From Tepidanaerobacter syntrophicus (lineage in GTDB: Bacteria > Bacillota > Thermosediminibacteria > Thermosediminibacterales > Tepidanaerobacteraceae): a stretch of DNA of 64,000 bases. Numbering within the stretch: the first letter of the stretch is position 1; the number at the start of each line of letters is the position of its first letter. A program made the position numbers and the translations under genes. Of the stretch, positions 89 through 23,892 are shown piece after piece. The notes under the pieces were generated by a model. The model was given only the letters and a program-made list of their open reading frames with translations, was not told where the DNA came from and searched no databases. The DNA is taken from contig NZ_DF976999.1 of NCBI RefSeq assembly GCF_001485475.2, positions 158,001 to 222,000 of the forward strand, read 5' to 3'.

Positions 89-418
89 TTATATTCCTTC
101 CAAAAACCCAAGGTTTCTGTCTTCAAGAGTTCCTACGACGGCCGCTCTGTCTAAAAATGAATTTGAAATTTCGCAGCTTGTTTCCGGAAGAAGGGCGCAG
201 CTGTGGCATGCGGCGTAATTTAGGGAAAAGGTGCCTTGGCCTTTCATATTAATGCAGAGCGGATCTAATGAACACCATTTTGCTTCTTCTAACATATTGT
301 CTAATATTTCCTGAAAGCGCTCAGGCTCTCCTTGCCGGACAAGTCCCCCAAGGCTTCCTTCTGAGTCGGGGGAAGCTGTGTATATCAAAATGCCTGCCAT
401 TTCCATATTCTCTTTCAT
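89..418 (-). pseudogene. 3' fragment of a DUF1998 (DrmB/MrfB-like) gene
   Basis: About 109 codons encode only the cysteine-rich tail typical of DUF1998 proteins. In order one sees GGLVRQGEPERF, a C-x5-C pair around WCSLDPLC, then ACHSCALLPETSC and NSFLDRA. In intact family members (DISARM DrmB, MrfB, some helicase partners) this tail ends a protein of several hundred residues and probably binds zinc. Here nothing upstream in the same frame continues the protein; a different reading frame with its own start overlaps it from the left of the gene. I read it as the remnant of a deleted defence or helicase-associated gene. Confidence is good for the domain and moderate for the state of decay. Confidence 0.72.
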
Positions 419-677
419 ATTCTTTACAAGTCATGAGTTCCTGTATAGTCTTATTTTTTTCTTCTTCATCCAGCACCCTATAGTAATTAAAAAAAGCATT
501 AACTCCAATATCATTAGGAAATTCAAAAACATATTTCATGCCTTTGCCTCTAGATTGTGTGTCACCTCTAAGTAAAAATTGAATTCCTTCCATCGCAGCT
601 TCCGAATTATTTAAACCTAGCTTTGAATTTCGCTTGTATTTCTCAACCAATAAATCTAAATCCTGAATAGTTTTCAT
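321..677 (-). pseudogene. Unrecognised 118-codon ORF, probable 5' gene fragment fused to the DUF1998 remnant
   Basis: The ATG at 677 has a strong ribosome-binding site (AGGAGTAGGAG), so this looks like a true gene start. The first 85-90 residues are ordinary mixed helical protein (KTIQDLDLLVEKYK, then FEFPNDIGVNAFFNYYRVL). I do not recognise the family. After about residue 90 the frame runs into the DUF1998-coding stretch in the wrong phase and yields an arginine-rich nonsense tail. The likeliest reading is a 5' gene fragment joined out of frame to the DUF1998 tail by a deletion or a one-base frameshift near 400-420. A functional small protein cannot be excluded. Confidence 0.45.
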
Positions 678-775
678 TATCTCCTACTCCTTTTCTATAC
701 CAAAAAATACAAATATTTATATATTTCTACAATTATACCTAAAATCCTCCCTTGCAGTGAATATTTGAGGACGAT

Positions 776-833
776 CCATTTTTGGGGACGGAGGTGAATT
801 ATTCATTGCACTTCGTTTCATGCGGAATGACAT
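776..833. repeat. Dispersed repeat pieces in the 678-1054 intergenic gap
   Basis: The 377-base gap before the DUF262 gene holds no gene. It contains CCATTTTTGGGGACGGAGGT followed by GAATTATTCATT (776-810). The same block recurs almost unchanged at 13287-13318, and more weakly at 10434-10462. Directly after it comes a piece ending GGAATGACAT (808-833), the reverse complement of the TGTCAT-type repeat also seen at 2864-2946 and 13231-13262. The rest of the gap is A/T-rich and should contain the promoter of the downstream gene, but I see no clear -35/-10 pair. Confidence 0.55.
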
Positions 834-1054
834 AAACCAGGGATTTTCCCAGGCACTGCGGCACACGAGAGGGACGAAAGTTTAATTCGCAAAGGTTTTT
901 ATATGTGTATAAGCAAGTGCCTGACTCTGTGCTCCGCAGAAGTAAGAAGGAAAATCGCATAAGGTGGCGAATTTATATAGTTATAGTTAAAGTAAAAATT
1001 TAAAAAATTTATTTATAACTAAGCTACTAAATAATTAGCAGGGGGTTTCAACAA

Positions 1055-2818
1055 ATGCCGACTATATTTCACAGTACATCGGAAATGTTAAAAAGTTTGC
1101 TTGATTCTGTGCAAGACGGAAGAACACAACTTCCGGATTTTCAAAGGGGTTGGGTGTGGGATAATGAACGGATTCGCAAATTGCTTGTAAGTGTTCTAAA
1201 GTCGTTTCCTATCGGAGCAGTTATGCTGCTTGAAACAGGAAACCCTGATGTAAGGTTTAAGCCTCGCTTAGTTGAGGGAGTCTGCTTACCGCAGCTGCCA
1301 GAACCTCAAAGGCTTATATTAGATGGACAGCAGCGCATAACATCTTTGTATCAAGCTCTTTACTTAGATGAGCCGGTTAAAACTACTGATGTTCGCGGAA
1401 AAGAAATCAGGAGATGGTATTATTTAGATATAAATATGGCAACAGATGTAAATTCAGATAAGGATGATGCTATAATTTCGCTGCCGGAGGACAAAATATT
1501 AAGGGGCAAGGGCAATGTAGTAATAGCTGATTTTTCAACTATGGAAAAAGAATGTGAAGCCGGACTGCTTCCAGTACATTATTTATTTAAACCTGATAAA
1601 CTTTTACAGTGGCAAAATCAATATTTTAGCATTGACATGTCCCAAGAACGCTCTTTGCGATGGAGTAAGTTCATGGCAGAGGCGTTTTCAGCATTTAATA
1701 ATTATCAATTACCGGTAATAACACTTTTGAATACAACACCAAAAGAAGCTGTATGCCAAGTATTTGAAAACGTAAACACCGGCGGTGTAACTTTGACGGT
1801 GTTTGAATTACTGACAGCTTCTTTTGCAGCAGATAATTTTTCACTAAGGGATGATTGGAAATTAAGATATGAAGGCAATCCAAGCAATAGTGAAGATGTT
1901 AAAGCATTTAAGAATAATCCTATTTTATCGATATTAGAAAATACAGATTTTCTGCAGACTATTGCGCTATTAGTAACTTATAATAGAAAGAAAGATAATC
2001 CTGGAGCTGCAGTAGGCTGTAAGCGCAGAGATATTTTAAATTTAACGGTAGAAGAATACAAGGCATGGAGCGGCAAAGTTACTGAAGGGTTTTATGAGGC
2101 TGCTAAATTTTTAATGGAACAAAAAATCTTCTCACATCAAGATATACCATATCCCTCACAAATGATACCTTTAACTGCAATCTTAGTTGAATTAGGACCG
2201 AAAGCCCACAATCACACAACAAGGCAGAAACTAGCACAATGGTATTGGTGCGGTGTTTTTGGTGAATTGTATGGTGCTGCTACTGAGACTCGGTTCGCAA
2301 AAGACTTGCCACAGGTTTTAGATTGGTTAGATGGTAAAAGCAAGCCGGATACGATAAGTGAAGCAACCTTCGATTCCGACAGGCTTTTGACTATGCGCAC
2401 TAGAAACAGTGCTGCATATAAAGGTGTGCATGTTCTTTTAATGAGAGAAGGGTGTAGGGATTTTATATCAGGCGTTCCCATTGATCTTCAGACATACTAC
2501 AATGACAGTATAGACATTCATCATATATTTCCTACAGCTTATTGTGCTAAGCAGGGAATACCTAAAGATCTATACAATTCTATAATTAACAAATCACCGC
2601 TTTCAGCTTTAACAAACCGCTCAATAGGAGGAAATCCACCAAGTATTTATCTGGATTTCATTGAAAAAGAAAAAAATATTGATGCTGATACCTTAAACAA
2701 AATTTTAGAAACTCACCTAATAGATGTTGACGCTATACGGTCTGATGATTTTAATACCTTTTTCGAAAAGCGAAAGGAAGCGTTATACAACAAAATTTTA
2801 GAAGCAATGGGTCAATAA
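1055..2818 (+). CDS. DUF262/HNH nuclease, GmrSD-like type IV restriction protein
   Basis: A 587-residue protein with an N-terminal DUF262 (ParB-like nucleotide-binding) domain: LPDFQRGWVW at about 26-35 and the hallmark DGQQR at 90-94. A C-terminal DUF1524-type HNH nuclease follows, seen as IDIHHIFP near 487 with the later ALTNRSIGGNPPS. GmrS (DUF262) and GmrD (DUF1524) act together as NTP-dependent type IV enzymes that cut modified phage DNA, and single-chain fusions are common. The ATG follows AGGGGG with a 9-base spacer. It stands alone, with repeats on both sides, at the edge of the Zorya/R-M block. A role in phage defence is inferred; the cut substrate cannot be read from sequence. Confidence 0.85.
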   Translation: MPTIFHSTSEMLKSLLDSVQDGRTQLPDFQRGWVWDNERIRKLLVSVLKSFPIGAVMLLETGNPDVRFKPRLVEGVCLPQLPEPQRLILDGQQRITSLYQALYLDEPVKTTDVRGKEIRRWYYLDINMATDVNSDKDDAIISLPEDKILRGKGNVVIADFSTMEKECEAGLLPVHYLFKPDKLLQWQNQYFSIDMSQERSLRWSKFMAEAFSAFNNYQLPVITLLNTTPKEAVCQVFENVNTGGVTLTVFELLTASFAADNFSLRDDWKLRYEGNPSNSEDVKAFKNNPILSILENTDFLQTIALLVTYNRKKDNPGAAVGCKRRDILNLTVEEYKAWSGKVTEGFYEAAKFLMEQKIFSHQDIPYPSQMIPLTAILVELGPKAHNHTTRQKLAQWYWCGVFGELYGAATETRFAKDLPQVLDWLDGKSKPDTISEATFDSDRLLTMRTRNSAAYKGVHVLLMREGCRDFISGVPIDLQTYYNDSIDIHHIFPTAYCAKQGIPKDLYNSIINKSPLSALTNRSIGGNPPSIYLDFIEKEKNIDADTLNKILETHLIDVDAIRSDDFNTFFEKRKEALYNKILEAMGQ

Positions 2819-2837
2819 GTAAATAAGTGTATGCTAG

Positions 2838-2990
2838 GGAAGCCTCTGAAAATCTCGGGTTTATGTCATGCTGAATGAAACGAGGTGGAATGAAGAATCT
2901 TAAAGCCGCTTCGACGAAAGATCCTTCGCTGACGCTCAGGATGACAGTTTTTGTTATTTGTAATATTGTTTCACTTTTTCAGAGGCTTCC
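2838..2990. mobile_element. MITE-like element with 15-bp perfect terminal inverted repeats
   Basis: The ends are GGAAGCCTCTGAAAA (2838-2852) and its exact reverse complement (2976-2990). Inside is an imperfect palindromic repeat that begins TGTCATGCTGA and ends TCAGGATGACA (2864-2946). It has no coding capacity, is 153 bp long, and shows no clear target-site duplication. This structure suits a non-autonomous insertion or a large structured intergenic repeat. It lies directly after the DUF262 gene and could also act as its terminator. Confidence 0.6.
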
Positions 2991-3122
2991 TTGCACCGTG
3001 ATGCCTGGAAAGAGAAAAAACCGCAGCAGTGCGGTTAAGAGTTTCTTTACATGTTTATAAGAAAGTCGCAAAAACTTTTTAGTTTCTCTTTGGTTTTATC
3101 GTAGATTCGTAGAGGGGATAAT

Positions 3123-3447
3123 ATTAAAAAAGCCAATAAAATCGACGAAAAAATTATAACCTCTATCAGTATCAATCAATGTATCATAAAACTTGTCTAT
3201 CACAGCTTCCGCACTGTTAACTTTTAGTCTCGCAAAATACAATGAGTCCATGTGCTGACCCCCATAATCAATCATAATTTCTTATAACAAGTTCTTTAAT
3301 ACTGCCTCGCTTTTTGCCATCGCAATTAATAGATCTTTTGGCATAAAATTAATTCACTGTTTTGCATGTTCTTATCTCATCCTAATTTTATATTAGTATT
3401 TTTATCATTATATCATGAAATTGTTGCATATCACAAAAAGAATACTA
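3123..3447 (-). pseudogene. Collapsed copy of the hicB-leader/DpnII R-M module
   Basis: Bases 3123-3141 match the hicB leader at 13316-13334 exactly. Bases 3140-3344 match the 5' part of the DpnII gene plus the end of dam (12033-12237), with about ten substitutions. Bases 3336-3447 match the start and promoter of dam (13092-13197). The inner junction falls on a 9-bp repeat, TTTTGGCAT, present at 12229 and 13092 in the intact operon, so 863 bp have been lost there. The residual dam start reads only MQNSELILCQKIY before a stop. The dam promoter (TTGTGA, 18 bp, TATAAT) survives on the minus strand. No functional protein remains. The rest of the 2819-3539 gap holds the MITE-like element and the A/T-rich leader of zorA. 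Confidence 0.85.
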
Positions 3448-3539
3448 TATCCGATTATCAAAATCGTCTAGTTATTGCATTGTAAATATTATATAATATT
3501 GTATAAATCTAAAGTTATGAGATTCGCGGAGGTTGCGGT

Positions 3540-5153
3540 ATGTTTATAAGCTTAGTTACTGCTTTTTCTAAAATACCCACTGATATTTATTGTAGCTTAA
3601 TGGTGGCAATCTTTATTATAGCTATGTGGTACTTTCATCGTCTGCCGAAGAAATACTCAGAAACTCTGACTGTCTTATCAAGGGCATTTAAAATCGAAGG
3701 GGATATTCATAGTAAAGCAAGTCACGCGGTAGAAGTCTTGGAAAAAGAAATTGAAAAACAAAAAAAGCTTTCAGATCCTCATTTAAAAGGAGAGGACAAG
3801 CTCTATTTTTTGAATCTATTAGAGAAGATAAAATCCCGTTTATATAATGGCGATTTTTCCAGTATTTCCGAAGTTGTAAATTATGACACGATTATTGCAA
3901 AGCATGGATATCGTTCTTTTGCAGGCCTTATGCCGGGTATTTTTACAGGTCTTGGAATTTTAGGAACATTTCTAGGCCTTGTAGGAGGGCTCAAAGGTTT
4001 GGATTTTTCCAATCCCTCGGCTTTAGAAGGTGGAATAAATATACTTATTTCTGGTATGTATTTAGCTTTTGTGACATCAGTAGTAGGAATTATCTTATCC
4101 ATTTCGTGGTCAATTATAGATAGAAATCGAATTGCTAAGTATAAAAGTCGCGTGGATGTTTTTAATAATATGTTTGAAAAATATTTAGAAAAGCCCAAGC
4201 TGCACGATTTTTTGGCTAAAATTGTAGAACTTGAAGAAGAACAGAGAAGTTCCATAAATACTTTGGCGTCAGATATTAGCCTTGAAGTTCAAAATATAAT
4301 GCAGAGTATAGTAATGCCTCAATTTGCAGGTGCCTTAGTTAAGGTCCTGGATGATGGCGTGGTATCTAAAATAGATCAATCATTCGGAAAGGTTTTAGGC
4401 GAGGTTAAGACCGCCTCGGAAAATTCAAACCTTCTCTTAGAAAAATTTGTTGATACTGCTTCGACAAATCAGATCGAGGGATTAAATAAAATTGTCCAAG
4501 AGTTTATCAATAATATGAATGGTGCTTTGGAAGGTAGATTTGAAGCTTTGGCTCACTCTATCGATGAAATGATCTCATGGCAGAGCAGCATGACAAACAA
4601 TGTGGGAAAGCTGCTAGCAGATATAGCGGATACAAGCCTCAATATAAAAGAGATAAACAGCAGCGTAGAAGATACCATATTACGGTTTTCCAATTATTTT
4701 GACAAGGTTAACAATGCAAATGAAAAACTAATAGAAAATATCAATCTTATTGAATCTACATCACAGAATATAGCTAGATTCATCACAGAGGCATCTCAAA
4801 TATTTAAAGAGTTGAATGAAGAAAAAGGCTTATTTGAGACTCAAAAGGATAATTATGTAAAGCTTATGGAAAGTTATACGGCACAAGTCAGTCAAAAAAT
4901 AGCAGAGTTACAGCAAAATTGGAATCAGGTAAGTAAAAATTTATACAACTTAAATTCAAGCCTTCAACAATCCATGGGCGAATTTGGCGAGAAAACCCAC
5001 AGCAGTCTAAAGCAGAGCTTTGAAATCTTTGACAGAGAGCTTGCATTAATAGCAAGATATTTGGATGGCACCATTTCTGAAATAAGATCTTCTGTTGCCG
5101 AACTACCAATTGTTATTTCTGAATTTAAAAAATCATTGGATGTAGCCAATTAA
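3540..5153 (+). CDS. zorA: ZorA, MotA/ExbB-like proton-channel subunit of Zorya
   Basis: A 537-residue membrane protein related to MotA/ExbB/TolQ. It has an N-terminal hydrophobic segment (about 18-35) and two conserved membrane segments (about 127-150, with GLGILGTFLGLVGGL, and 167-194). After these comes a cytoplasmic tail of about 340 residues, rich in helix-forming repeats. The long tail separates ZorA from ordinary flagellar or Tol stators. In Zorya, ZorA5-ZorB2 forms a proton-driven motor anchored to the wall, and the tail carries the signal of phage injection to the cytoplasmic effectors. The start has GGAGG 7 bases upstream. It is the first of four co-directional, tightly packed genes. 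Confidence 0.93.
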   Translation: MFISLVTAFSKIPTDIYCSLMVAIFIIAMWYFHRLPKKYSETLTVLSRAFKIEGDIHSKASHAVEVLEKEIEKQKKLSDPHLKGEDKLYFLNLLEKIKSRLYNGDFSSISEVVNYDTIIAKHGYRSFAGLMPGIFTGLGILGTFLGLVGGLKGLDFSNPSALEGGINILISGMYLAFVTSVVGIILSISWSIIDRNRIAKYKSRVDVFNNMFEKYLEKPKLHDFLAKIVELEEEQRSSINTLASDISLEVQNIMQSIVMPQFAGALVKVLDDGVVSKIDQSFGKVLGEVKTASENSNLLLEKFVDTASTNQIEGLNKIVQEFINNMNGALEGRFEALAHSIDEMISWQSSMTNNVGKLLADIADTSLNIKEINSSVEDTILRFSNYFDKVNNANEKLIENINLIESTSQNIARFITEASQIFKELNEEKGLFETQKDNYVKLMESYTAQVSQKIAELQQNWNQVSKNLYNLNSSLQQSMGEFGEKTHSSLKQSFEIFDRELALIARYLDGTISEIRSSVAELPIVISEFKKSLDVAN

Positions 5154-5164
5154 GGAGGATTTAG

Positions 5165-5854
5165 ATGGATAATGAAACAAATCATGATTATTGGCAATCC
5201 TATTCAGATCTTATGGCAGCAGTACTTTTAGTTTTTGTACTGTTGATAAGCATAATGATGTATAAATACAATGGCATGGCAGCCGAATTAAAGCAACAAA
5301 AATCTAAGGTCGACGAGTTAATCGGAATTAGATCTATGATTATTAAGGAGCTTTTAGAAGAATTTGATGCTACAGAGCTATCCCTCAATATTGACTCCCA
5401 GTCGGGAGCTATTCGGTTTAGTGATGGGGTATTTTTTGATACGGCCGAATCTGTGCTGAAACCCGAGGGTAAGAAATACTTAAATGAATTTTTACCCAGA
5501 TATCTCAATGTGTTGCTAGATCCTAAGTATAAAAAATTTGTATCTCAAATAATAATTGAGGGTCATACAGACAATCGAGGCAGTTATATGTACAATCTAG
5601 AGCTATCCCAAAAGCGTGCTTTTGCAGTTGTTTCGTACATACTTCTTGAAAATATACCTGGAATAAATCCTGATATGAAGCAGGATCTTCAAGTTTTTTT
5701 GACGGCAAACGGTAGGTCGTACAGTCAGCCCATGTATAATGGAAGTACTATAGATTTAGACAAGTCCCGGAGGGTAGAATTTAAGTTTCGATTGAAAGAT
5801 GAGGAAATGATAACTGAAATGCAAAACATTCTTGAAGGGCAGAGGGAAAAATGA
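5165..5854 (+). CDS. zorB: ZorB, MotB/OmpA-like peptidoglycan-binding motor subunit
   Basis: A 229-residue protein with one N-terminal membrane helix (about 16-33), preceded by SYSDLMAA. Asp15 sits where MotB carries its proton-binding aspartate. The C-terminal OmpA-like domain shows IEGHTDNRGSYMYNLELS from about 131 and LDKSRRVEFKF near the end, the peptidoglycan-binding signature. It partners ZorA in the Zorya motor. It starts 11 bases after zorA with GGAGG upstream, and its stop overlaps the zorC start (ATGA), which implies translational coupling. Confidence 0.92.
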   Translation: MDNETNHDYWQSYSDLMAAVLLVFVLLISIMMYKYNGMAAELKQQKSKVDELIGIRSMIIKELLEEFDATELSLNIDSQSGAIRFSDGVFFDTAESVLKPEGKKYLNEFLPRYLNVLLDPKYKKFVSQIIIEGHTDNRGSYMYNLELSQKRAFAVVSYILLENIPGINPDMKQDLQVFLTANGRSYSQPMYNGSTIDLDKSRRVEFKFRLKDEEMITEMQNILEGQREK

Positions 5855-7101
5855 GATGGCATACCTTTTGTTTTACGCCTACAAATTTGATTTTGACCCG
5901 AAAAGAGCTTGTCCAAAAAGACGTAGAAATTAAAAATAGTATTAGAAATCCACAAAAAGAAGATATTCTTAAGCTGCTTGCAAAAATAGAAAAAATACCC
6001 TTTGATGAAATCCGCCAGTTTGCCTTTTCCTTGACTTTGCGGGAACTTTACCAGCTGGTATATTATTTCCCCACTGCTGACATAGAATCTCATGCCAGAA
6101 AAATATGTGAAATTATAAAATTAAGGTTCAAAGATGAATTTGTTGAACTGCTCTGGACTGGCTTTCAAAAAAATTATATTAATAGAAAGTTTTGCTTACT
6201 CTTTTCGGAAATCTTAGCGCAAAAAGGGGAGCTTTTTGTAAGTTATTTTAGAAACCCAACGGTCTATAATTTAGCCAAGAATTGGGTAGCCAGCGAGCAA
6301 GTAACATCTTCTATTTTCAAGTATTTGAACAGGCAGGGCATAAGCTTGGATGATTTCTTTACTATATTCAAGATAGAAGATGATACTTTATTAGCAAAAG
6401 ATATTAAGAAACATGTGTATTTATATTGTAATGAGGACTTTTATCTTAAAACCGGTGGAGAGAATTTAAGAAGTATAATCGAGCAATATAATAACGAAGA
6501 ATTAATTTTATTTACAGAGAATTATTTAAGCAAAGTATCCTTTGTTAATTTTCAAAGAGATGTAATGGAGTTTTTGGCAAAGCACAAGAAAAAACCTCGA
6601 GAAAAGGAATTGGATTTTTTCTGGAGCAACATATCTGATAGCAGCTTTAAAAAGTTTTGTAAATGGATATACATAAATACTCTTAAAATCGCCTTTAACG
6701 ATGATCGCAGAGAGTTTTGGTTACGATACATAGACTTGTTTGAAGATATGACGTATGTGAAAAAATACAGTCAGCTTTTTATGTACTTTGAAAATTGTGT
6801 AGTAGTCGAATTCGGCGCATCTGGTGCGGTACATGTATATCAAAAAGAGGAATTTAAAAAGCAATTTCAGCGTTTTGCCAACAATACTGATCCAAAAAAT
6901 GACAGTTTCTTTAAAATGCCTGAAAAGGCCATGCGCATCCCTCACAGAGGGTACAATTGGCAGCAGGCTGCTGATAATGCTATGTCGCAAATCTTTAAAG
7001 GAAATTTTATTCCGAATGTCACAGTTAAAACTTCCGGTCAATGGATATATACAGATACCAAATTGACAGTAGGAGGACACTATGCTAGATATTACTTATG
7101 A
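5851..7101 (+). CDS. zorC: ZorC, EH-signature protein of type I Zorya
   Basis: A 416-residue soluble protein. The C-terminal third carries the EH_Signature pattern used to recognise ZorC: REFWLRYIDLFEDM near 287, then VVVEFGASGAVHVY near 318, and a basic, aromatic tail. ZorC is the type I component reported to bind DNA and act with ZorD after motor activation. The N-terminal two thirds are helical with no motif I recognise. ATGA overlap with zorB and a 20-base overlap with zorD support a single operon. The family call rests mainly on context plus the EH-type motif. Confidence 0.85.
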   Translation: MRWHTFCFTPTNLILTRKELVQKDVEIKNSIRNPQKEDILKLLAKIEKIPFDEIRQFAFSLTLRELYQLVYYFPTADIESHARKICEIIKLRFKDEFVELLWTGFQKNYINRKFCLLFSEILAQKGELFVSYFRNPTVYNLAKNWVASEQVTSSIFKYLNRQGISLDDFFTIFKIEDDTLLAKDIKKHVYLYCNEDFYLKTGGENLRSIIEQYNNEELILFTENYLSKVSFVNFQRDVMEFLAKHKKKPREKELDFFWSNISDSSFKKFCKWIYINTLKIAFNDDRREFWLRYIDLFEDMTYVKKYSQLFMYFENCVVVEFGASGAVHVYQKEEFKKQFQRFANNTDPKNDSFFKMPEKAMRIPHRGYNWQQAADNAMSQIFKGNFIPNVTVKTSGQWIYTDTKLTVGGHYARYYL

Positions 7102-9865
7102 ATTAGAAGAAAATGGCATCAAAATCATGTGTTTTTCACCGTCAGGTATTATCAAAATACCTCTCTTTTTAAATTCAAAGGAAAAGCTAAAAGATCTTTC
7201 TACCAGAGATTTTGAAAAGCTCAATTTATTAGATTCATTTTGGCAAAAGAGCCTGGTAGCAGAAGGAAAAGACAATGATTGCTGCTTCATGTTCTATGAT
7301 TCATTATATGAAATACCGGAAATGGATCGCAAAATCCTTGGTCTTCCTATAGAGAGGGATATTACTGCAAAGGTTAGATCCAAGGGTATCTTATATAGAT
7401 CAAATTTTAATGTAACAGCTCAGTTATATTTAAACCATGAACCATTGGGAAAACTTTTTAGGCGGCATAAAAATATAGTTTATTTCGGAAAAGAATATAT
7501 ACTGCTGCCTAAAGAGATTTATGATCTGCTTTCAGAAATTGAAAAGTATTCAACTACTGATAATCCTGTAGAGCAGGCAAAGTTTGTCGCTAAGATTAAA
7601 TATAAGGCAAAACTTGCCGGCGCGGAGCTTGATAAAATCCTCCAAGCAGAAGAAGTTTATTTCCCTGATAAACTGGATGTAGAAATAAAAAAACACTCTG
7701 ATGAACATTTAGAGCTTTTCCCAAAGTTGGGAGAAGAAATTGACGAAATCATAAAAGATGTGCAAAGACCATTGGCATCTTACAACACCCTTCGCGGCGA
7801 AGGCATAAATCGAAGAAGGATTTTTCTTGAAGATAATGTAAAGCAAAGTTACAACAAAATCATCGAAAAGAAAGATATTAAAGGCGCAGATGTTCCTAAA
7901 TTTTTAACAAACCCTTACTCTGTCCTTCCGGAGGAAATAGATATTTCAAAGTTTGGCCAAAGGGTAAAAGAGTTAGGTCTTAGAGTGTATAGAGCAAACC
8001 CATATGTTAGTGTAACCCCCGATAAAAATTCTTCCGGATGGTTTGATTTTGACTCCGGTGGCATTGTAGAGCCCATAATGTATGGGAATGATTTTGATAA
8101 AGATGAGCAAGAAGTAGAGAAAGCCGCAGATGTAAAAAAAATTAATCTAGAAGAATTAAAAATGCTTGCAGAAAAAGCCAAAGAGCAAGGCGAAGATCAT
8201 ATTTATTATGATGGTCAATGGATAAATATCGATGTTGACAAAACTGAAAATTTCATCGCAACATGGGAAAGAGAATTGGGAGCTAAGAAAAAAATTTATT
8301 TATCCAAGCTTCCTTATGTTTTGAAAATTTTTGAGAATATTGACTCATTAGAGTATAACGAAACCGCATTTAAAATTAAAAATCAGCTCACCAGAAGATT
8401 TGATGTATCGGATTTTGAGGCTCCTGCTAATCTTGCTAACTGTAACCTCTTTAAGCATCAAAAGGAAGGCTATCTTTGGATGCGAAACTTGAGGCAAAAT
8501 CTGCTGGGAGGACTTTTAGCTGATGATATGGGGCTAGGTAAGACTTTGCAGGTAATAGCTTTTATGTGTTTTTTGAAGGATAATGATGCTTTAAGCCCAT
8601 CCTTAGTAATTGCACCTTCCACACTACTTGATGTATGGGAAAGGGAAATAGGCAATTTTTCAAAAATAACCTCCGTCTATCAGCATCGAGGTCTTAATCG
8701 ATATAAGAATATAGAAATGATAAAAAACTATGATGTAGTGCTTACTACATATGAAACGCTGGTAAAAGATCAGCTGATATTAGGACAAATCGACTGGCAG
8801 GTAGTAGCATGTGATGAGGCTCAGAAGATAAAAAACAGTACGACATTAAGCACCATAGCTGTTAAGGCTTTAAAAGCAAAGACCAAACTTGCCGTTACCG
8901 GTACGCCTGTGGAAAATAATCTGGGAGAATTATGGTGTATAGTAGATTTTGTGCAGCCGGGGCTGCTGAATAGTTATAACGAATTTAGGAACCGTTTTCA
9001 AAAACCTATTGAAAACAATATAGAAAAAGGTGATCGCTCAAGACAAGCAAGAGATGAACTTTTAAATACAATAAAGCCGGTATATATCAGAAGAGAAAAA
9101 GAGGATATTTTAGATTTGCCGAAAAAACACGAGCATTCTTTAGCGGTAGATCTCTCATCTGTTCAAGAAAAGATTTACAGCTGCCTTATACAAGAATATA
9201 AGGCAGGCAGAAAAGAACAAAAAGGCATGGCTCTGGCAGTAATTCAGAAACTTATTCAAGTTTGTGCTCATCCTCGCTTAGTATCAGGAAATGAATTAGT
9301 TTCTACAAAGCAGTTAATTGATGAATCAGGTAAGCTGAAACTTACATTGAATATATTAGATGAGATACAGCAGCGGGGAGAAAAAGCTGTAATTTTTACC
9401 CATTACAAAAAAATGCAGGCAATACTCAAAAAGGTTTTATTAGATAAATATGGTATAAATTGTTCAGTAATAAATGGAGATGTTAAGCAAAACAGGATAC
9501 AAATAATCGACCACTTTCAAAACACTCCTGGTTTTTCCGTGATAATTCTCTCCACAAGAGCTGCCGGACTTGGCATAACTATCACTGAGGCAAACAACGT
9601 AATCCATTATACCCGAAGCTGGAACCCTGCGGTAGAAAATCAAGCTACTGATAGGGTATACCGAATAGGACAGAAAAGAGATGTAAATATATATTACCCG
9701 ATTTCCGTAAGCAGCCGCGGAAGTACAGTAGATGAAAGGCTAGATGAGATATTGCAGCAAAAGCGCATTTTGGCACGTGATATCGTAATTCCCTCCAAAT
9801 ATATCAAAGTTGGAAAACAAGATATCGAATACCTACTGCAAGATGCATACAGCTTTGAAAAGTAA
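7082..9865 (+). CDS. zorD: ZorD, SNF2-family helicase/nuclease effector of Zorya
   Basis: A 927-residue protein. The N-terminal 450 residues are of unrecognised fold. The C-terminal half is a full SNF2 motor: DDMGLGKTLQ (Walker A) near 480, DEAQ near 577, TGTPVENN, STRAAGLGITITEANNVI, and QATDRVYRIGQ near 855. ZorD in type I Zorya is the effector reported to degrade or translocate phage DNA; known forms are somewhat longer (about 1,080). GGAGG lies 6 bases before the ATG inside the end of zorC. Any nuclease activity would have to sit in the N-terminal half; I see no clear catalytic motif there. Confidence 0.9.
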   Translation: MLDITYELEENGIKIMCFSPSGIIKIPLFLNSKEKLKDLSTRDFEKLNLLDSFWQKSLVAEGKDNDCCFMFYDSLYEIPEMDRKILGLPIERDITAKVRSKGILYRSNFNVTAQLYLNHEPLGKLFRRHKNIVYFGKEYILLPKEIYDLLSEIEKYSTTDNPVEQAKFVAKIKYKAKLAGAELDKILQAEEVYFPDKLDVEIKKHSDEHLELFPKLGEEIDEIIKDVQRPLASYNTLRGEGINRRRIFLEDNVKQSYNKIIEKKDIKGADVPKFLTNPYSVLPEEIDISKFGQRVKELGLRVYRANPYVSVTPDKNSSGWFDFDSGGIVEPIMYGNDFDKDEQEVEKAADVKKINLEELKMLAEKAKEQGEDHIYYDGQWINIDVDKTENFIATWERELGAKKKIYLSKLPYVLKIFENIDSLEYNETAFKIKNQLTRRFDVSDFEAPANLANCNLFKHQKEGYLWMRNLRQNLLGGLLADDMGLGKTLQVIAFMCFLKDNDALSPSLVIAPSTLLDVWEREIGNFSKITSVYQHRGLNRYKNIEMIKNYDVVLTTYETLVKDQLILGQIDWQVVACDEAQKIKNSTTLSTIAVKALKAKTKLAVTGTPVENNLGELWCIVDFVQPGLLNSYNEFRNRFQKPIENNIEKGDRSRQARDELLNTIKPVYIRREKEDILDLPKKHEHSLAVDLSSVQEKIYSCLIQEYKAGRKEQKGMALAVIQKLIQVCAHPRLVSGNELVSTKQLIDESGKLKLTLNILDEIQQRGEKAVIFTHYKKMQAILKKVLLDKYGINCSVINGDVKQNRIQIIDHFQNTPGFSVIILSTRAAGLGITITEANNVIHYTRSWNPAVENQATDRVYRIGQKRDVNIYYPISVSSRGSTVDERLDEILQQKRILARDIVIPSKYIKVGKQDIEYLLQDAYSFEK

Positions 9866-9887
9866 AAATCTGTAGGTAGATTATTCG

Positions 9888-9983
9888 TTAAAAAGCCAAT
9901 AAAAAATGTTATAATTAACATATAAGGGCTATATTCCCACTGAAAGTTTGTAATTCAAATTATTTCTAATTGAGGTGATGGAT
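9888..9983 (+). promoter_or_regulatory. hicBA promoter/leader (repeat copy 1)
   Basis: A -10 hexamer TATAAT lies at 9910-9915 with a weak -35 (TTAAAA) about 16 bases upstream. A short inverted TTATA/TATAA around the -10 could be a HicB operator. The whole leader and the first codons of hicB (9888-10007) recur at 13317-13437, with only a few substitutions. Confidence 0.5.
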
Positions 9984-10202
9984 TTGAAAAAATTTAATTT
10001 CACAATTCTTATAGAAAAGGACGAAGATGGATTATATATAGCATCAGTGCCTGCATTGAGAGGATGTCATACACAAGCTAAAACCGTTGAAGAATTGCTG
10101 CCAAGAATAAAAGAGGCTATAGAGCTTTATCTAGAAGTGAATAACAGCGAAGTTACAACAAATGAATTCATCGGTGTTCAGCAGGTAGAGGTTTCTATAT
10201 GA
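9984..10202 (+). CDS. hicB: HicB-family antitoxin
   Basis: A 72-residue protein with the HicB fold pattern KFNFTILIEKDEDGLYIASVP, then LRGCHTQAKTVEELLPRIKEAI. HicB binds and inactivates HicA and usually represses its own operon. I chose the TTG at 9984 because GAGGTGAT lies 8 bases upstream. ATG 9978 and GTG 9975 are in frame but too close to the ribosome-binding site. No C-terminal HTH/RHH DNA-binding extension is visible, so this is the short partial-RNase-H form. It overlaps hicA by 4 bases. Confidence 0.87.
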   Translation: MKKFNFTILIEKDEDGLYIASVPALRGCHTQAKTVEELLPRIKEAIELYLEVNNSEVTTNEFIGVQQVEVSI

Positions 10203-10426
10203 GTAAATTAAGTATTATTTCATCAGTGGAGATGATACAAATCCTTAAGATCTTAGGGTTTGAGGAGATCCGGCAAAAAGGCAGTCACAAATTCTTTAGA
10301 CACAAAGACGGAAGAACAACTATAGTTCCATTCCATGGAGAAGATCTGGGAAGAGGCTTAATAAGAAAAATATTAAGTGATATAGAAATTTCTGTTGACG
10401 AATATGAGGCACTTAGAAAATCATGA
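10199..10426 (+). CDS. hicA: HicA-family mRNA-interferase toxin
   Basis: A 75-residue dsRBD-like toxin. The N-terminal helix carries LKILGFEEIRQKGSHKFFRH, with the conserved GSH catalytic histidine, then GRTTIVPFHGEDLGRGLIRKIL. HicA cleaves mRNA and stops translation unless bound by HicB. ATGA overlap with hicB implies coupled translation. The order antitoxin-toxin is the reverse of the E. coli hicAB operon but common in Firmicutes. It runs head to head with the end of the DpnII operon. Confidence 0.9.
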   Translation: MSKLSIISSVEMIQILKILGFEEIRQKGSHKFFRHKDGRTTIVPFHGEDLGRGLIRKILSDIEISVDEYEALRKS

Positions 10427-10453
10427 TTTTGAATATTTGGGAACGGAGGTGTA

Positions 10454-11233
10454 TTATTTACTCAGGCCCATACTGTATCTTACCCTGCTTAAGTCTTCTC
10501 CTTTTTTAGGTTTTCTAAAAACAAACAAATGCTCATGCATTATCAGATAAAAGTTATATTTCTCAACTTGTCTTTCCCAGTATGGCGTAGATTTACAATT
10601 ATGCTGAACTTTTATGATATCCTCTTTTAATATGAATCCGTTTTTTAGAAAAAGGTCCATTACATAAAAAGCTAACGGCACATAATGAGAGCTTTTTCTT
10701 GTATCTCCTATCAATATCCCACAATACTTATTTTCTTTTAATACTCTCCGCAGTTCTATAATCCCTTTTTCTAATTCACCACAAAACTTTTTAACTCCTG
10801 ATATATTTGATAAATCTCCGTCAATGCCTTTTGAATATTCTATTATATTCAGGTATGGAGGATGTGTTATTATCAGATCTATGCTTCCATCACTTATTTC
10901 ACGTAAGTTTCTTATGTCGCCTACTTTTACAATAGGGTTGTATTTATAATCACCTTCAAATTCCAGGTTTTTCTTGGCTATTTCAACCGCTTGAGGATTT
11001 ATATCAAAACCTATGCCCTGCCTATTTAGCAGTTTGGTCTCTATAAGGGTTGTTCCGCTTCCTACCATTGGATCGAGCACTACATCTCCCTCTTGAGAAT
11101 ATCTCAATATAAGATTTCTGGGTATCTGTGGTGCAAAATTGCCTCGATAATTTCCGTTGTGTGTTTTCCATTTACCCCTATCGGGAAAGGACCAAACAGT
11201 AGTTATTTCTTTCTTAAAATTTATATTTTCCAT
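10454..11233 (-). CDS. Extra DNA methyltransferase of the DpnII R-M operon
   Basis: A 259-residue amino-methyltransferase with the SAM motif DPMVGSGTT at 54-62 followed by catalytic motif IV THPPY at 123-127. Motif I comes before motif IV, so this is not a DpnA-type protein, which has the reverse (beta) order. The histidine before PPY is unusual beside the normal D/N/S-PP-Y. It starts inside the end of the endonuclease gene with GGAGG upstream, so it belongs to the same operon. In DpnII systems a second methylase often protects single-stranded or hemimethylated GATC. Whether this one does, or modifies another site as N4-cytosine or N6-adenine, is unknown. Confidence 0.78.
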   Translation of the reverse strand: MENINFKKEITTVWSFPDRGKWKTHNGNYRGNFAPQIPRNLILRYSQEGDVVLDPMVGSGTTLIETKLLNRQGIGFDINPQAVEIAKKNLEFEGDYKYNPIVKVGDIRNLREISDGSIDLIITHPPYLNIIEYSKGIDGDLSNISGVKKFCGELEKGIIELRRVLKENKYCGILIGDTRKSSHYVPLAFYVMDLFLKNGFILKEDIIKVQHNCKSTPYWERQVEKYNFYLIMHEHLFVFRKPKKGEDLSRVRYSMGLSK

Positions 11234-12144
11234 AATATTTCCTCCAATAACCCCGTACGAACAAAATGAAGATTTAATAAATAATCTACTCTTTCAAATC
11301 CTTTTTCTATCTGGTTCTTTTGATCCTTCCATCCGATACCGTCTGTAACCCAAATAAATTCAAAACCGTTTTCTCGCAATTCATTTTGTCTTTCTATATA
11401 AGAATCCACTATTTCTTGGGGCTTTGAGCCAGACCCGGAAAAAAAGTTGACTTCAATGTTAATCACTTTACGATTATCCTTAATAATTATAAAATCCGCC
11501 TTTCTATTTTTTATAGAAGAGTTTACCTTAAAGTCAAAATTATCCTCAAGATATTTAAATTGCTTTTGATACAGCATTGTATATGAAGCCCTTTGCTTTG
11601 CAATTATATCTTCTATGATAGGTTTTAAAACCATCTCCATGGCATGGCCGCTTCTATTCTTCCTTGCATTAGTATCCATTCCAACTTCTATACCTGTTAC
11701 ATAATCCTGTATGCTATTTGACGACAGCTCAAGGAAGAATCTCTTTAAACCCGTCTTATTAAAAAACTCTGTGATAGCATCAATATCATTAGAAGTTAAT
11801 TTCCTCTTGCTAAAATCATAAGTTACCGTATCGGAACTATCATCTATAAAATCCTTAACCACTTTGAATTTTCGTTCTCTTATCGCCAAGAGAATTGGAA
11901 TTGCCGGAATAACCTGTGGATATTCTATTAAAATCTTCCTCAAATCCGAATCAAAATTTTTACTGCCGATTAGGGTGTTTAATATATTAAATTCGATTTT
12001 GTACTCCTCTACATTTCTTTTAACCTTGTCCCAATCGACGAAAAAATTATAACCTCTATTAGTATCAATCAATGTATCATAAAATTTGTCTATCACAGCT
12101 TCTGCGCTGTCAACTTTTAGTCTTGCAAAATAGGATGAGTCCAT
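11221..12144 (-). CDS. dpnB: DpnII-family type II restriction endonuclease (GATC)
   Basis: A 307-residue protein with strong DpnII-family signatures: ILNTLIGSKN (54-63), DYVTGIEVGMDTNARKNRSG (147-166), KADFIIIKD from 215, and IEVNFFSGSGSK (230-241) with Glu231 in the PD-(D/E)xK-like core. DpnII cuts unmethylated GATC. I place the start at 12144 because GGGGGT lies directly upstream; an in-frame earlier start at 12168 would add eight residues overlapping dam. Gene order here is dam, endonuclease, second methylase. Its first 110 bases are duplicated in the remnant at 3140-3250. Confidence 0.9.
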   Translation of the reverse strand: MDSSYFARLKVDSAEAVIDKFYDTLIDTNRGYNFFVDWDKVKRNVEEYKIEFNILNTLIGSKNFDSDLRKILIEYPQVIPAIPILLAIRERKFKVVKDFIDDSSDTVTYDFSKRKLTSNDIDAITEFFNKTGLKRFFLELSSNSIQDYVTGIEVGMDTNARKNRSGHAMEMVLKPIIEDIIAKQRASYTMLYQKQFKYLEDNFDFKVNSSIKNRKADFIIIKDNRKVINIEVNFFSGSGSKPQEIVDSYIERQNELRENGFEFIWVTDGIGWKDQKNQIEKGFERVDYLLNLHFVRTGLLEEILWKI

Positions 12145-12160
12145 GTGCTGACCCCCACAA

Positions 12161-13123
12161 TCAATCATAATTTCTTATAACCAGTTCTTTAATACTGCCT
12201 CGCTTTTTGCCATCGCAATTAATAGATCTTTTGGCATTTACTCGCTCGATTTTGAAACCGGAATAAAGAACATCAAAAAAATCGTCGTTTATGTCTTCAT
12301 TTTTGGGATCGGAATTGCTTAGGATTAAAAAAGCGCCTTTTTTATCCATTTCTTTGTAATAATTAGCCAATCTGATTTGATCCTCATCGTTAAAACCATC
12401 TTTATCATAACTTGTAAAATAAGATGTTTTGTTTAAAGGTCTATATGGTGGATCAAGATACACTAAGGTATTAGCATCGATAAATTTTTTGCTTTCTTCG
12501 AAATCTGTCGAAAATACATATGTGTTTTTAAGCGCCTCATTAACTCTTAACAGATTTTCCTTATCACAAATAGTAGGATTTTTATATCTGCCAAAAGGCA
12601 CATTGAACTTTCCTCTTTTATTTTGTCTGAATAAGCCGTTAAAACAGGTTTTATTTAAAAATATTAAATATGCTGCTCTTTTTATCCAATCGCTGTTATA
12701 TGTTTCATAATTAAAATTATCCTGCTGATTATTGTATTCATCTCTTGTTTTGTAGTAATATTCTTTTCTATCAATTTCAGGTAGGTTTATATATTCATCT
12801 TCAATTCTTTCAAGTTCGTACATTAATTCTTGAACATCCTTTTGAATAACTTTATACCCGATAATTAATTCCTTGTTTATATCATAGAGAAATGACTCTT
12901 TCACCTCATAATTACTTTTTAAAAAAAAGAAAAAAGCGCCACCACCTACAAAGGGTTCCACATATCTTTGAACAGTTTTAGACATCTTTATTTTAAGTGG
13001 TAGTCTGTCAGATAACTCGTTTAACAACTGTGTTTTGCCCCCTGCCCACTTTACAAACGGCTTGGCTTCTTTTTCAAATATATTCCCTGTATTTTGGCAT
13101 AAAATTAATTCACTGTTTTGCAT
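12161..13123 (-). CDS. dam: Dam/DpnM-type adenine methyltransferase (GATC)
   Basis: A 320-residue D12 class N6-adenine methyltransferase. The SAM-binding motif FVKWAGGK is at 23-30 and the catalytic DPPY at 224-227, followed by TSYFTSYDKDGFN. This class methylates GATC and protects host DNA from the adjacent DpnII nuclease. It is first in a three-gene minus-strand operon and has a clear promoter at 13163-13192. Its two ends are duplicated in the collapsed module left of Zorya. Confidence 0.93.
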   Translation of the reverse strand: MQNSELILCQNTGNIFEKEAKPFVKWAGGKTQLLNELSDRLPLKIKMSKTVQRYVEPFVGGGAFFFFLKSNYEVKESFLYDINKELIIGYKVIQKDVQELMYELERIEDEYINLPEIDRKEYYYKTRDEYNNQQDNFNYETYNSDWIKRAAYLIFLNKTCFNGLFRQNKRGKFNVPFGRYKNPTICDKENLLRVNEALKNTYVFSTDFEESKKFIDANTLVYLDPPYRPLNKTSYFTSYDKDGFNDEDQIRLANYYKEMDKKGAFLILSNSDPKNEDINDDFFDVLYSGFKIERVNAKRSINCDGKKRGSIKELVIRNYD

Positions 13124-13162
13124 GTTCTTATCTCATCCTAATTTTATATTAGTATTTTTATC

Positions 13163-13192
13163 ATTATATCATGAAATTATTGTATATCACAA
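13163..13192 (-). promoter_or_regulatory. Sigma-A promoter of the DpnII R-M operon
   Basis: Read on the minus strand: -35 TTGTGA (13192-13187), an 18-base spacer ending in TGA, and -10 TATAAT (13168-13163), i.e. an extended -10. It lies 40 bases before the dam ATG. The same promoter is kept in the degenerate copy at about 3386-3440. Confidence 0.7.
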
Positions 13193-13230
13193 AAAGAATA
13201 CCGGTTACTGCTCAAAGGTTGAAAACGACT

Positions 13231-13318
13231 TGTCATCCTAAACGCAGTGAAAGATCTTTATAAGGAGCGAATAAAATTCTATGCTGCCCATTTTTAGGGA
13301 CGGAGGTAAATATTCATT
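13231..13318. repeat. Dispersed repeat pieces between dam and res
   Basis: TGTCATCCTAAACGCAGTGA (13231 on) is the half-site of the repeat inside the 2838-2990 element. It is followed by CCATTTTTAGGGACGGAGGT and AAATATTCATT (13287-13318), the same block as at 776-810. Together with the hicB fragment this fills the 13124-13441 gap; no gene is present. Confidence 0.55.
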
Positions 13319-13437
13319 AAAAAAGCCAATAAAAAATGTTATAATTAATATATAAGGGCTATATTCCCACTGAAAGTTTGTAATTCAAATTATTTCTAAT
13401 TGAGGTGATGGATTTGAATAAATTTAATTTCACAATT
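13317..13437 (+). pseudogene. Truncated hicB copy: full leader plus about eight codons
   Basis: This is an almost exact copy of 9888-10007, including the TATAAT, the GAGGTGAT ribosome-binding site, the TTG start and codons for LNKFNFTI. Similarity then stops abruptly, five bases before the end of the res gene on the other strand. One substitution changes the second codon from Lys to Asn. It is the broken start of another hicBA module. Confidence 0.88.
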
Positions 13438-16491: not shown

Positions 16492-18354
16492 TCATAAAAC
16501 TTTAATCTCCGTGCCGGGAGATATGGCTTTAAATATTTCTTCCAGGTTTATTCTGTCAGGACAGGATTTAAAGGAGTTATCTCTAAATACTACCTTTAGC
16601 GGCTTAGTTTTAGCTATCTCTTTAACTAATTTTTCATCTACATCTTCATCAAAACATGCCACAAGTGAATCACCTGCTACAAAATGAACTTCTTTGCCGT
16701 AAATCTTTTTTGTTTCAATCGGCAGCGACAGCTCAAGGCCTGCCTCAAGCATTACTTGCGTTAGCAGATCCAAGCCGGTTCTATCTTCTTTTATATTGGA
16801 TTCTAATTGGTCCAAAAGATTTTGGTCAAGTTCATCAGGCCTGTAATATACATCCTTCATGTTTGAAGAATCTACTCTATATACCCTAAAACCATAATCT
16901 ATATCTGCGCCAGTTTCTTCCTTTATCTTCTTTCCTGCACGGCGAATACGTTCTTTGCCTATTTCGGCGATGTTTTTAAAGCCTGCTTTATAGGCCTCGG
17001 ATTTTTCGTCACAAGGCTCAGGCAGTTGAACCATGATGTATTTGCGACCTCCCCCATCCTCTGCATTAAGCTCCATCACTGCATGGGCAGTGGTGGCGGA
17101 GCCGGAGAAGAAGTCGAGGATGAAACAATCGTTACTTGTATAAAGTTCTATAACTCTTTTTATCAATTTTACTGACTTGGGATAATCATAAAATGCTTTA
17201 CCATCAAACAATTTATTTAATTCTTGCTTTGCTTCTTGAGAATGACCTACTTCTTCATACTTCCAAATTGTTAGAGGCGTCATTGTGCTTTTTACTTCTG
17301 ATAAGAATCTTTTTATACTAGGCACATTATTGCCATCCTCCCCAAACCAAATTCTATTGTCTTTAACCATTTCTTCAAATCTTTCTTTAGTATATCTCCA
17401 GCAGTATCCTTCAGGTGGCAATACTTTTCTGCCACTTGGAGTAGTTATTTCATAAACTTTTTCCGGAACTATCGGTCCAACAGATAAATCGCTAGATTTC
17501 CAAGGACCTCTTGGATCATTATCTGGATTTTTGTATCTTTTATCGGCTTCTCCGCTTCTTTCCAAGCCATTGCAAACAAGTTGATCTATGTTTTTAGCAT
17601 ATGACACCATATAATCATGATTTTCAGAAAAATGTTTTTTCAGGTTTACCGGAGCATACGCTCTTTCCCATACCACCGTTGCGACAAAATTCCTCTCCCC
17701 AAATATCTCATCGCAAATCTTCCTGAGATTATGCACTTCATTGTCATCTATAGATATAAATATTACTCCGTCTTCGGATAGCAGGTTTCTGGCAAGTTTT
17801 AATCTTGGATACATCATTGTCAGCCAGTCGCTGTGAAATCTTCCGTTGTATTCGGTGTTTTGAAAGAGCCTGTTGCCGTCTTCATCTACTTGGCCCGATT
17901 CTTCTGCGTATTCATCTTTGTCCTGGGTAAAATTGTCCTTATATATAAAATCTTTACCGGTATTGTAAGGCGGGTCTATGTATATGCATTTTATCTTGTT
18001 TAGGTAGGATTCTTGAAGTAGTTTTAGGACTTCCAGGTTGTCTCCTTCTATATATAGATTCTCTGTATCTTCCCAGCTTACGCTGTCTTCTTTTACCGGT
18101 CTTAGGGTTTTATCTATGGGGGTATTAGCTCTAACAACAGCTTCTTTTTTCCCCGGCCAGGTTAGTTGATATCTCTCCTTGCTGCCTTCAACTATTTCAT
18201 CGCTTAACTCCTGCTGCAAAAGTTCAAAGTCTATGGCATGGGTTATATTGCCATCTTCATCTTTTATTTCTGTGATTACATTAGGAAAGAGTTTACCTAT
18301 TTTTTCTACATTTTCTTTAGTAATATCTTTTGATCTCATTTTTAGTTTCTTCAT
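16492..18354 (-). CDS. mod: Type III Mod, DNA adenine methyltransferase (full length)
   Basis: A 620-residue beta-class methyltransferase. It has an N-terminal cap with LTWPGK, catalytic DPPYNTGKDFIY from 127, a central target-recognition region (about 215-385), the SAM motif FFSGSATTAHAV near 413, and a 108-residue C-terminal domain after YGFRVYRV. Mod sets the recognition sequence for both methylation and Res cutting. The start has AGGAGG 6 bases upstream and overlaps the DUF4391 stop (ATGA). Its 3' methyltransferase block is almost identical in DNA to that of the second mod at 22354-23892, while the central region is not. Confidence 0.92.
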   Translation of the reverse strand: MKKLKMRSKDITKENVEKIGKLFPNVITEIKDEDGNITHAIDFELLQQELSDEIVEGSKERYQLTWPGKKEAVVRANTPIDKTLRPVKEDSVSWEDTENLYIEGDNLEVLKLLQESYLNKIKCIYIDPPYNTGKDFIYKDNFTQDKDEYAEESGQVDEDGNRLFQNTEYNGRFHSDWLTMMYPRLKLARNLLSEDGVIFISIDDNEVHNLRKICDEIFGERNFVATVVWERAYAPVNLKKHFSENHDYMVSYAKNIDQLVCNGLERSGEADKRYKNPDNDPRGPWKSSDLSVGPIVPEKVYEITTPSGRKVLPPEGYCWRYTKERFEEMVKDNRIWFGEDGNNVPSIKRFLSEVKSTMTPLTIWKYEEVGHSQEAKQELNKLFDGKAFYDYPKSVKLIKRVIELYTSNDCFILDFFSGSATTAHAVMELNAEDGGGRKYIMVQLPEPCDEKSEAYKAGFKNIAEIGKERIRRAGKKIKEETGADIDYGFRVYRVDSSNMKDVYYRPDELDQNLLDQLESNIKEDRTGLDLLTQVMLEAGLELSLPIETKKIYGKEVHFVAGDSLVACFDEDVDEKLVKEIAKTKPLKVVFRDNSFKSCPDRINLEEIFKAISPGTEIKVL

Positions 18355-22353: not shown

Positions 22354-23892
22354 TTAGTCTGTGGTAATTCTATATACCCTAAAACCATAATCTATATCTG
22401 CGCCGGTTTCTTCCTTTATCTTCTTTCCTGCACGGCGAATACGTTCTTTGCCTATTTCGGCTATTGTTTCGTAACCTGCTTTATAGGCCTCGGATTTTTC
22501 GTCACAAGGCTCAGGCAGCTGCACCATTATGTATTTGCGGCATCCGCCATCCTCTGCATTAAGCTCCATCACCGCATGGGCAGTGGTGGCAGAGCCGGAG
22601 AAGAAGTCGAGGACGATTTCGTTTTCAAGATAAAACATCTTTAATAGATATTTTAGCAGTGCCACAGGTTTTGGAAAAGAAAACACGGCTTTGCCGAATA
22701 ATTTTCGCATCTCTCGATTTGCATGAATATTGAGAATGCTCTCCTCGAACCCGATATGATTTTTATAAGGCTTAGTTCTTGTAATTTTGTTGCCCTTATT
22801 GTCTAGTTTTTCATATACTTTGTTATATACATTCCACCTGCCGCCCCGCCCCTTCTTCACCACTATGTATCCGTTTTTAATTCCCCACTCTACTTTTGCT
22901 TTGCTCCACACCCACCGCCACCCGTCATTAGACTGTTTTGTGCGGCCATTTGGAAAAACTAAAGTCCCATCAGGTGCTTTTATGCCAAAATCCATACTTT
23001 CCACATATCCCTTGCTGCCTCTATCCAGTTTTTCAAGCTTGTAGCCCCCTCTTTCTTTAAAATGTTCATCTTTGTATTTAAATTTTCCATCATAAGCGTC
23101 TATCTCTTTATTGTTAAACCTTACATCTTCCACATTTTTCGCATAGGCTAAAATGTATTCAGTTTCTATAATCACATATTTAGAGTCATTGCCTGAGCCT
23201 TTTGATTTTCGCCAAATGAAATTTGCTATAAAGTTTTTCTCGCCGAAAATTTCATTGCAGATTTTGCGCAAGTTGCACTCCTCTTTGTCGTCAATGCTTA
23301 TAAAAATTACTCCATCGTTTTTAAGTAAGGCTCGAGCCACTTTTAGCCTAGGGTATATCATGGTAAGCCAGCTGCTGTGATACCTGCCGTCGCGATCGGC
23401 GTTTTGTGTATCATCTTCGCCCCTAGTTTTTCCGGCTTTTTGTGCATACTCCTCTTTTCCTAATATAAATTTGTCTTTATATATAAAATCTTTGCCGGTA
23501 TTGTAAGGCGGGTCAATATAAATGAACTTTATTTTACCTGCATGCGACTTTTGTAGGAGCTTCAAGGTTTCCAGATTGTCTCCTTCTATATAAATATTTT
23601 CTGTGGCTTCCCAATTTAGGCTGTCTTCTTTTATAGGTCTTAGCATCTTATCTGCAGGACTGTTTGCAATAGTAAGTGCTTCTTCTCTTCCGGGCCACGT
23701 CAAAAGGTATCTTTTGCTATCGCTTTTTACTACCGTATCCCCCAGTTCTTCTCTAAGCTTTTCAAAATCTATAACTTGTCTTATACTGCCTTCTTCATCT
23801 TTTACCTTTTCAACAACATTTGGAAAAAGTTTCCCTAGCTTTTCTATCTTGAAATTTATTTCTTCATCTCCTGTTATATCAAGCTTTTTCAA
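22354..23892 (-). CDS. Second type III Mod paralogue lacking the C-terminal domain
   Basis: A 512-residue beta-class methyltransferase. It has the same cap and DPPYNTGKDFIYKD from 127 as the downstream Mod, a completely different central recognition region (about 215-370), then FFSGSATTAHAV and a stop right after YGFRVYRI. The last 108 residues of the full Mod are absent. The catalytic motifs are intact, so it may still methylate DNA, but it probably cannot assemble with Res if that tail is the contact surface (inference). It lies 22 bases after the upstream methyltransferase and 78 before the helicase start, in one apparent operon. Confidence 0.87.
   Translation of the reverse strand: MKKLDITGDEEINFKIEKLGKLFPNVVEKVKDEEGSIRQVIDFEKLREELGDTVVKSDSKRYLLTWPGREEALTIANSPADKMLRPIKEDSLNWEATENIYIEGDNLETLKLLQKSHAGKIKFIYIDPPYNTGKDFIYKDKFILGKEEYAQKAGKTRGEDDTQNADRDGRYHSSWLTMIYPRLKVARALLKNDGVIFISIDDKEECNLRKICNEIFGEKNFIANFIWRKSKGSGNDSKYVIIETEYILAYAKNVEDVRFNNKEIDAYDGKFKYKDEHFKERGGYKLEKLDRGSKGYVESMDFGIKAPDGTLVFPNGRTKQSNDGWRWVWSKAKVEWGIKNGYIVVKKGRGGRWNVYNKVYEKLDNKGNKITRTKPYKNHIGFEESILNIHANREMRKLFGKAVFSFPKPVALLKYLLKMFYLENEIVLDFFSGSATTAHAVMELNAEDGGCRKYIMVQLPEPCDEKSEAYKAGYETIAEIGKERIRRAGKKIKEETGADIDYGFRVYRITTD

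Follow-up and report, generated by a model that had tools for sequence, protein, structure and literature searches.

How did a few hundred base pairs that resemble pieces of a restriction-modification unit come to lie just left of a Zorya system, with an intact unit of the same kind on its other side? In the window (the whole 64,000-nucleotide stretch of Tepidanaerobacter syntrophicus DNA analysed here), the initial annotation had read this segment as a collapsed second copy of the hicBA-DpnII module, its ends and middle in the order of the intact module and two internal deletions accounting for its size. Pairwise alignment bears this reading out. Positions 3127-3445 (319 bp) correspond to the intact leader-hicBA-DpnII-dam unit at 9890-13201 (3312 bp) minus 2130 bp and minus 863 bp: the stretches 9890-9904, 12035-12237 and 13101-13201, once joined, also make 319 bp and differ from 3127-3445 by 12 mismatches, with no gap or further indel. 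BLAST of the window against itself gave two long matches, on the same strand and collinear with the intact unit, namely 3140-3344 with 12033-12237 (205 bp, 95.1%, E 3e-90) and 3336-3445 with 13092-13201 (110 bp, 98.2%, E 8e-51). Read on the minus strand, the former holds DpnII codons 1-45 and the 3' end of dam, and the 2130-bp deletion joins it to the leader; the latter holds the start of dam and its upstream region. The two matches overlap by 9 bp, TTTTGGCAT, a sequence that the intact copy has twice, at 12229 and 13092, and the relic once, at 3336-3344. These 9-bp direct repeats form the ends of the smaller deletion, and their spacing is exactly the 863 bp first proposed for it; at the larger deletion, the microhomology amounts to just 2 bp (AA).

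The leader end is the weakest part of the match. What remains of it (leader copy 1, 3123-3141, plus strand) is identical to 13316-13334 over 19/19 positions and, from 3127 to 3141, to 9890-9904 over 15/15, these 15-19 bp giving an E value of about 0.001 that is weak when taken alone. In the genomes of two sister species of the same genus (G001 and G002), the hicB leader followed by hicB is present at exactly the relic's leader junction, and the assignment of this end to the hicB leader stands. No further copy of the relic was detected elsewhere in the source genome by a whole-genome search. We considered an assembly error and regard it as unlikely, since the relic is unique and the contig around the window measures 464 kb. 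The 319-bp relic is thus confirmed as a collapsed (pseudogene) second copy of the neighbouring leader-hicBA-DpnII-dam unit.

Translation of the relic shows that the dam frame is broken after its first 10 codons and meets a stop after 13, and that the DpnII frame is cut after codon 45 and continues into unrelated sequence. The relic is dead, DpnII and dam both being destroyed. Eight codons are changed in its DpnII part, half of them (4/8) non-synonymously; one such difference, Y/C at position 4, is assigned to the intact copy as a derived change because G023, a relative with an intact operon, also has Y. The relic is probably without function. Its retention as a regulatory element, for instance to provide Zorya with a promoter or operator region, is very improbable: although the region upstream of dam is 98% conserved and keeps a promoter-like site (−10 TATAAT, minus strand), the leader operator region itself is gone, and we rejected a regulatory role since the promoter-like site faces away from Zorya and such matches are about as frequent as expected by chance (5 against 4.1).

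The relic belongs to an array in which a GmrSD gene, leader 1, the relic, Zorya, leader 2, hicBA, the DpnII operon, 102 bp, leader 3 and res follow one another, all three leaders being in one orientation. The left neighbour is a GmrSD-type (DUF262) gene at 1055-2818 (plus strand; Pfam GmrSD_N, E 2e-29), flanked by an imperfect inverted repeat of 51-57 bp (82-84%, 798-854 and 2842-2898). At 3015-3105 lies a remnant (80%) of the end of an MNT-HEPN-type toxin-antitoxin pair, an apparently complete version of which is carried by G002, beside its flagellin gene, and by G001, on C74. Zorya occupies 3540-9865 on the plus strand, with zorA (3540-5153), zorB (5165-5854), zorC (5851-7101) and zorD (7082-9865) in this order. 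It is a type I system: PADLOC recognised ZorA1 (3e-31), ZorB1 (3e-80), ZorC1 (2e-10) and ZorD1 (E 0), and MotA, OmpA/MotB, EH-signature and SNF2 parts were found with Pfam and PADLOC.

On the right of Zorya, leader copy 2 (9874-10007), which takes in the opening 11 codons of hicB, leads into intact hicB (9975-10202) and hicA (10199-10426), all on the plus strand (Pfam HicB_lk_antitox 9e-9, HicA_toxin 1e-17). The intact DpnII/MboI-like operon lies at 10454-13123 on the minus strand and is composed of a second methylase (10454-11233), the DpnII endonuclease (11221-12168) and a Dam-type methylase (12161-13123). The Pfam matches (N6_N4_Mtase, DpnII 5e-88, MethyltransfD12 5e-57) identify it as an intact MboI/DpnII-type operon with one endonuclease and two adenine methylases, and its family membership predicts that it cuts and methylates GATC. 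Leader copy 3 (13304-13437, plus strand), overlooked in the initial annotation, is 95.6% identical to 9874-10007 and breaks off at codon 11 of hicB, 4 bp away from the stop codon of the type III res gene, a junction that is identical in G023. The intact restriction unit is consequently bracketed by these 135-bp direct repeats. Another direct repeat, of 246 bp (94%, 16876-17120 and 22369-22613), lies between two of the island's type III methylase genes. From dam to the next leader there are 102 bp on the right (13202-13303), where a dispersed repeat is found, and 6428 bp in the counterpart interval on the left (3446-9873), which is filled by Zorya and its upstream region. Zorya does have a dead copy on one side and an intact copy on the other, as had been proposed; the notion of a simple flanking pair has to be given up, the three leaders making up a three-unit array.

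A 24-bp motif, TTTTNGGGACGGAGGTRAATTATT, marks the boundaries of these units. With 0-3 mismatches it has three copies genome-wide (780-803, 10435-10458 and 13292-13315), all within the island and each at the boundary of a defence unit; the copy at 10435-10458 (plus strand, 3 mismatches) forms the left edge of the DpnII unit, and G001 and G023 both carry an exact copy at the corresponding edge. More generally, the motif also occurs at DpnII or GmrSD boundaries in G001 (contigs C18 and C74) and G023 (contig C73). Upstream, leaders 2 and 3 have a motif, or half of one, in common, and leader 1 is without it. A 435-bp sequence equal to window positions 369-803 is present twice in G001 (98%), before the collapsed DpnII unit on C74 and before GmrSD on C18 (loci L024 and L026).

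We then looked at the relatives, where the initial annotation had suggested seeking an intact left copy or the module without Zorya in between. No intact left copy was found among them; the site without Zorya and DpnII was, in the two sister-species genomes. The hotspot is flanked by flagellar genes, of the hag/fliD type on one side and the flgK/flgL type on the other (names read from translations), and in G001 and G002 this flagellar locus carries GmrSD-leader-hicBA-res, with no Zorya and no DpnII at the site. The stretch 873-3141, from the GmrSD flank to the leader, is 98-99% identical in both and continues straight into leader-hicB. G002, a closed genome of 2.76 Mb, matches the left flank at 99.3% as far as the leader, beyond which come hicB, a hicA with an internal deletion, and res; in G001, the same arrangement is spread over two contigs, C18 and C88, that share a 43-bp overlap. 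Each genome has one leader-hicB, with a diverged leader (69%) and its own hicA defects. A match of 24/28 bp between hicA and res in G002 (score 36, background maximum 29) is suggestive, at most, of a dam micro-remnant. At 912000-931000 of C1 in G002 (L071), apparent type III-B (Cmr) CRISPR genes, read from sequence, stand within the same hotspot where the window has other units.

Related DpnII copies elsewhere have collapsed independently. On C74 of G001, the unit kept DpnII pieces and lost dam residues 174-259, and in G012 dam was kept and most of R and A deleted; there, a different hicBA pair (36-39% identical) adjoins the collapsed DpnII operon, of which the Dam methylase alone is intact (C228, 1341-3052, L030). 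G023 has an intact DpnII operon, 98% identical and with the same leader 3/res junction, without hicBA on its left, on a contig of just 3.3 kb that may be misplaced in its bin. DpnII also occurs without this hicBA nearby in G005, G022, G016 and G014, the hicBA of G005 being on another contig. Since most relatives have hicBA and DpnII as separate units, the term module describes a local joining, and in this respect too the first description had to be amended.

Most shared stretches of the island are 92-99% identical between the window and G001 or G002, against 68-77% for the flagellar and secA backbone, and the island has therefore been exchanged laterally between species. A close source of this Zorya was not found at the DNA level in 26 genomes of the class, and the best ZorD match among 398 genomes of the phylum is 55% identical. 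We rejected a phage or plasmid origin, as viral contigs gave no close match to ZorD or Dam and plasmids gave no match.

Taken together, these data lead us to consider, with a probability of about 0.8, that 3127-3445 represents a non-functional leftover from a second leader-hicBA-DpnII-dam unit that was duplicated or re-acquired and then decayed in a defence hotspot. A unit of the same predicted GATC specificity would have been duplicated in tandem, or regained through homologous recombination at the repeated leader/hicBA, which would give the three leaders, and Zorya may have come to sit in the dam-to-leader interval of the left unit. This unit would no longer have been needed because the right-hand methylase presumably protects the genome, and it could then have lost 2993 bp by replication slippage or by end joining at short repeats. 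The 205- and 110-bp repeats of the relic could still recombine with the right copy, deleting Zorya. As for the age of the duplication, the 205 bp shared by the relic and the right copy show 4.9% divergence, and the right copy differs from G023 by about 1%; the divergence being greater in the former case, a recent in-place duplication seems less likely, and the comparison leans towards an older one or a separate acquisition. In a phylogenetic tree, the right copy groups with G023 (bootstrap 95) and the relic falls outside; other placements are compatible with the AU test (p 0.13-0.15), so that the order of events in the array is not fixed by the tree.

Two routes fall within this explanation. 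The second unit may have been gained repeatedly by homologous recombination, without tandem duplication, leader-hicBA serving as a landing site and each hicBA-bearing defence piece adding one leader, with DpnII and Zorya as one cargo and DpnII as the next. The single leader-hicBA of G001 and G002, compared with three leaders here, agrees with such gains, as do the divergence values just given, the exchange of the island between species and the mosaic of leader 2 and hicB (69% and 97% identical to G002, respectively). However, the stub of leader 1 is too short for typing and donor DNA carrying hicBA-DpnII-Zorya was not found in the 26 class genomes or in plasmids, and we put this route somewhat below even odds. 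The divergence of the relic from the intact copy, which exceeds that of the intact copy from G023, weighs on the other route, in which unequal crossing-over between leaders 2 and 3 duplicated the unit in place before Zorya inserted and the left copy decayed; leader 1, moreover, is without the upstream motif half common to leaders 2 and 3. This route is backed by the 135-bp, 95.6% identical repeats around the intact unit and by the amplification of restriction units between direct repeats demonstrated in PMC3031569 and references there, and we give it slightly lower odds than the first. Leader 3 breaks off within hicB, and for this reason we rejected the idea that a clean target duplication by itself produced leaders 2 and 3. 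A broader proposal, which we regard as rather unlikely, is that the hicBA locus of the genus, with its leader and the nearby 24-bp motif, acts as a recombination landing pad. Defence cargo would then enter the flagellar-locus hotspot through homologous recombination at the repeated hicBA copies; every cargo would leave one more leader, and earlier cargo would be discarded where its specificity is the same.

The breakpoints, exact to the base, document how Zorya was gained, and a redundant restriction unit lost, in a single defence hotspot; since neither of the two sister species has Zorya or the restriction genes at this site, the scrap records the build-up of the hotspot and then its decay. 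It lends support to the general idea that a restriction unit can be safely lost once a second unit of the same specificity protects the genome, and the contrast in identity between island and backbone shows that species have recently exchanged entire defence blocks.

Restriction-modification units that insert with target duplications of about 100 bp, and tandem amplification between direct repeats, have been described (Nobusato 2000, Furuta 2010, as cited in PMC3874152 and PMC3031569). As in such insertions, the unit studied here is bracketed by direct repeats of about 100 bp, is absent from the site in relatives and has rearrangements nearby. In contrast to them, the repeat consists of the hicBA leader and 11 codons, there are three leaders and one unit encloses Zorya; unlike in a clean target duplication, the outermost hicB is truncated. 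The internal deletions removing R and/or M recall decayed restriction units and solitary methylases, such as the Dam-type methylase that is the sole intact part in G012, except that here both R and M are destroyed, which was presumably tolerated because an intact copy of the same predicted specificity lies 6.4 kb away. Compared with MboI/DpnII-type operons, the right copy is a normal, intact example, with two methylases and a DpnII-family endonuclease, and the left copy is a relic. The relic is thus ordinary biology for restriction systems, of a known kind and preserved with unusual clarity.
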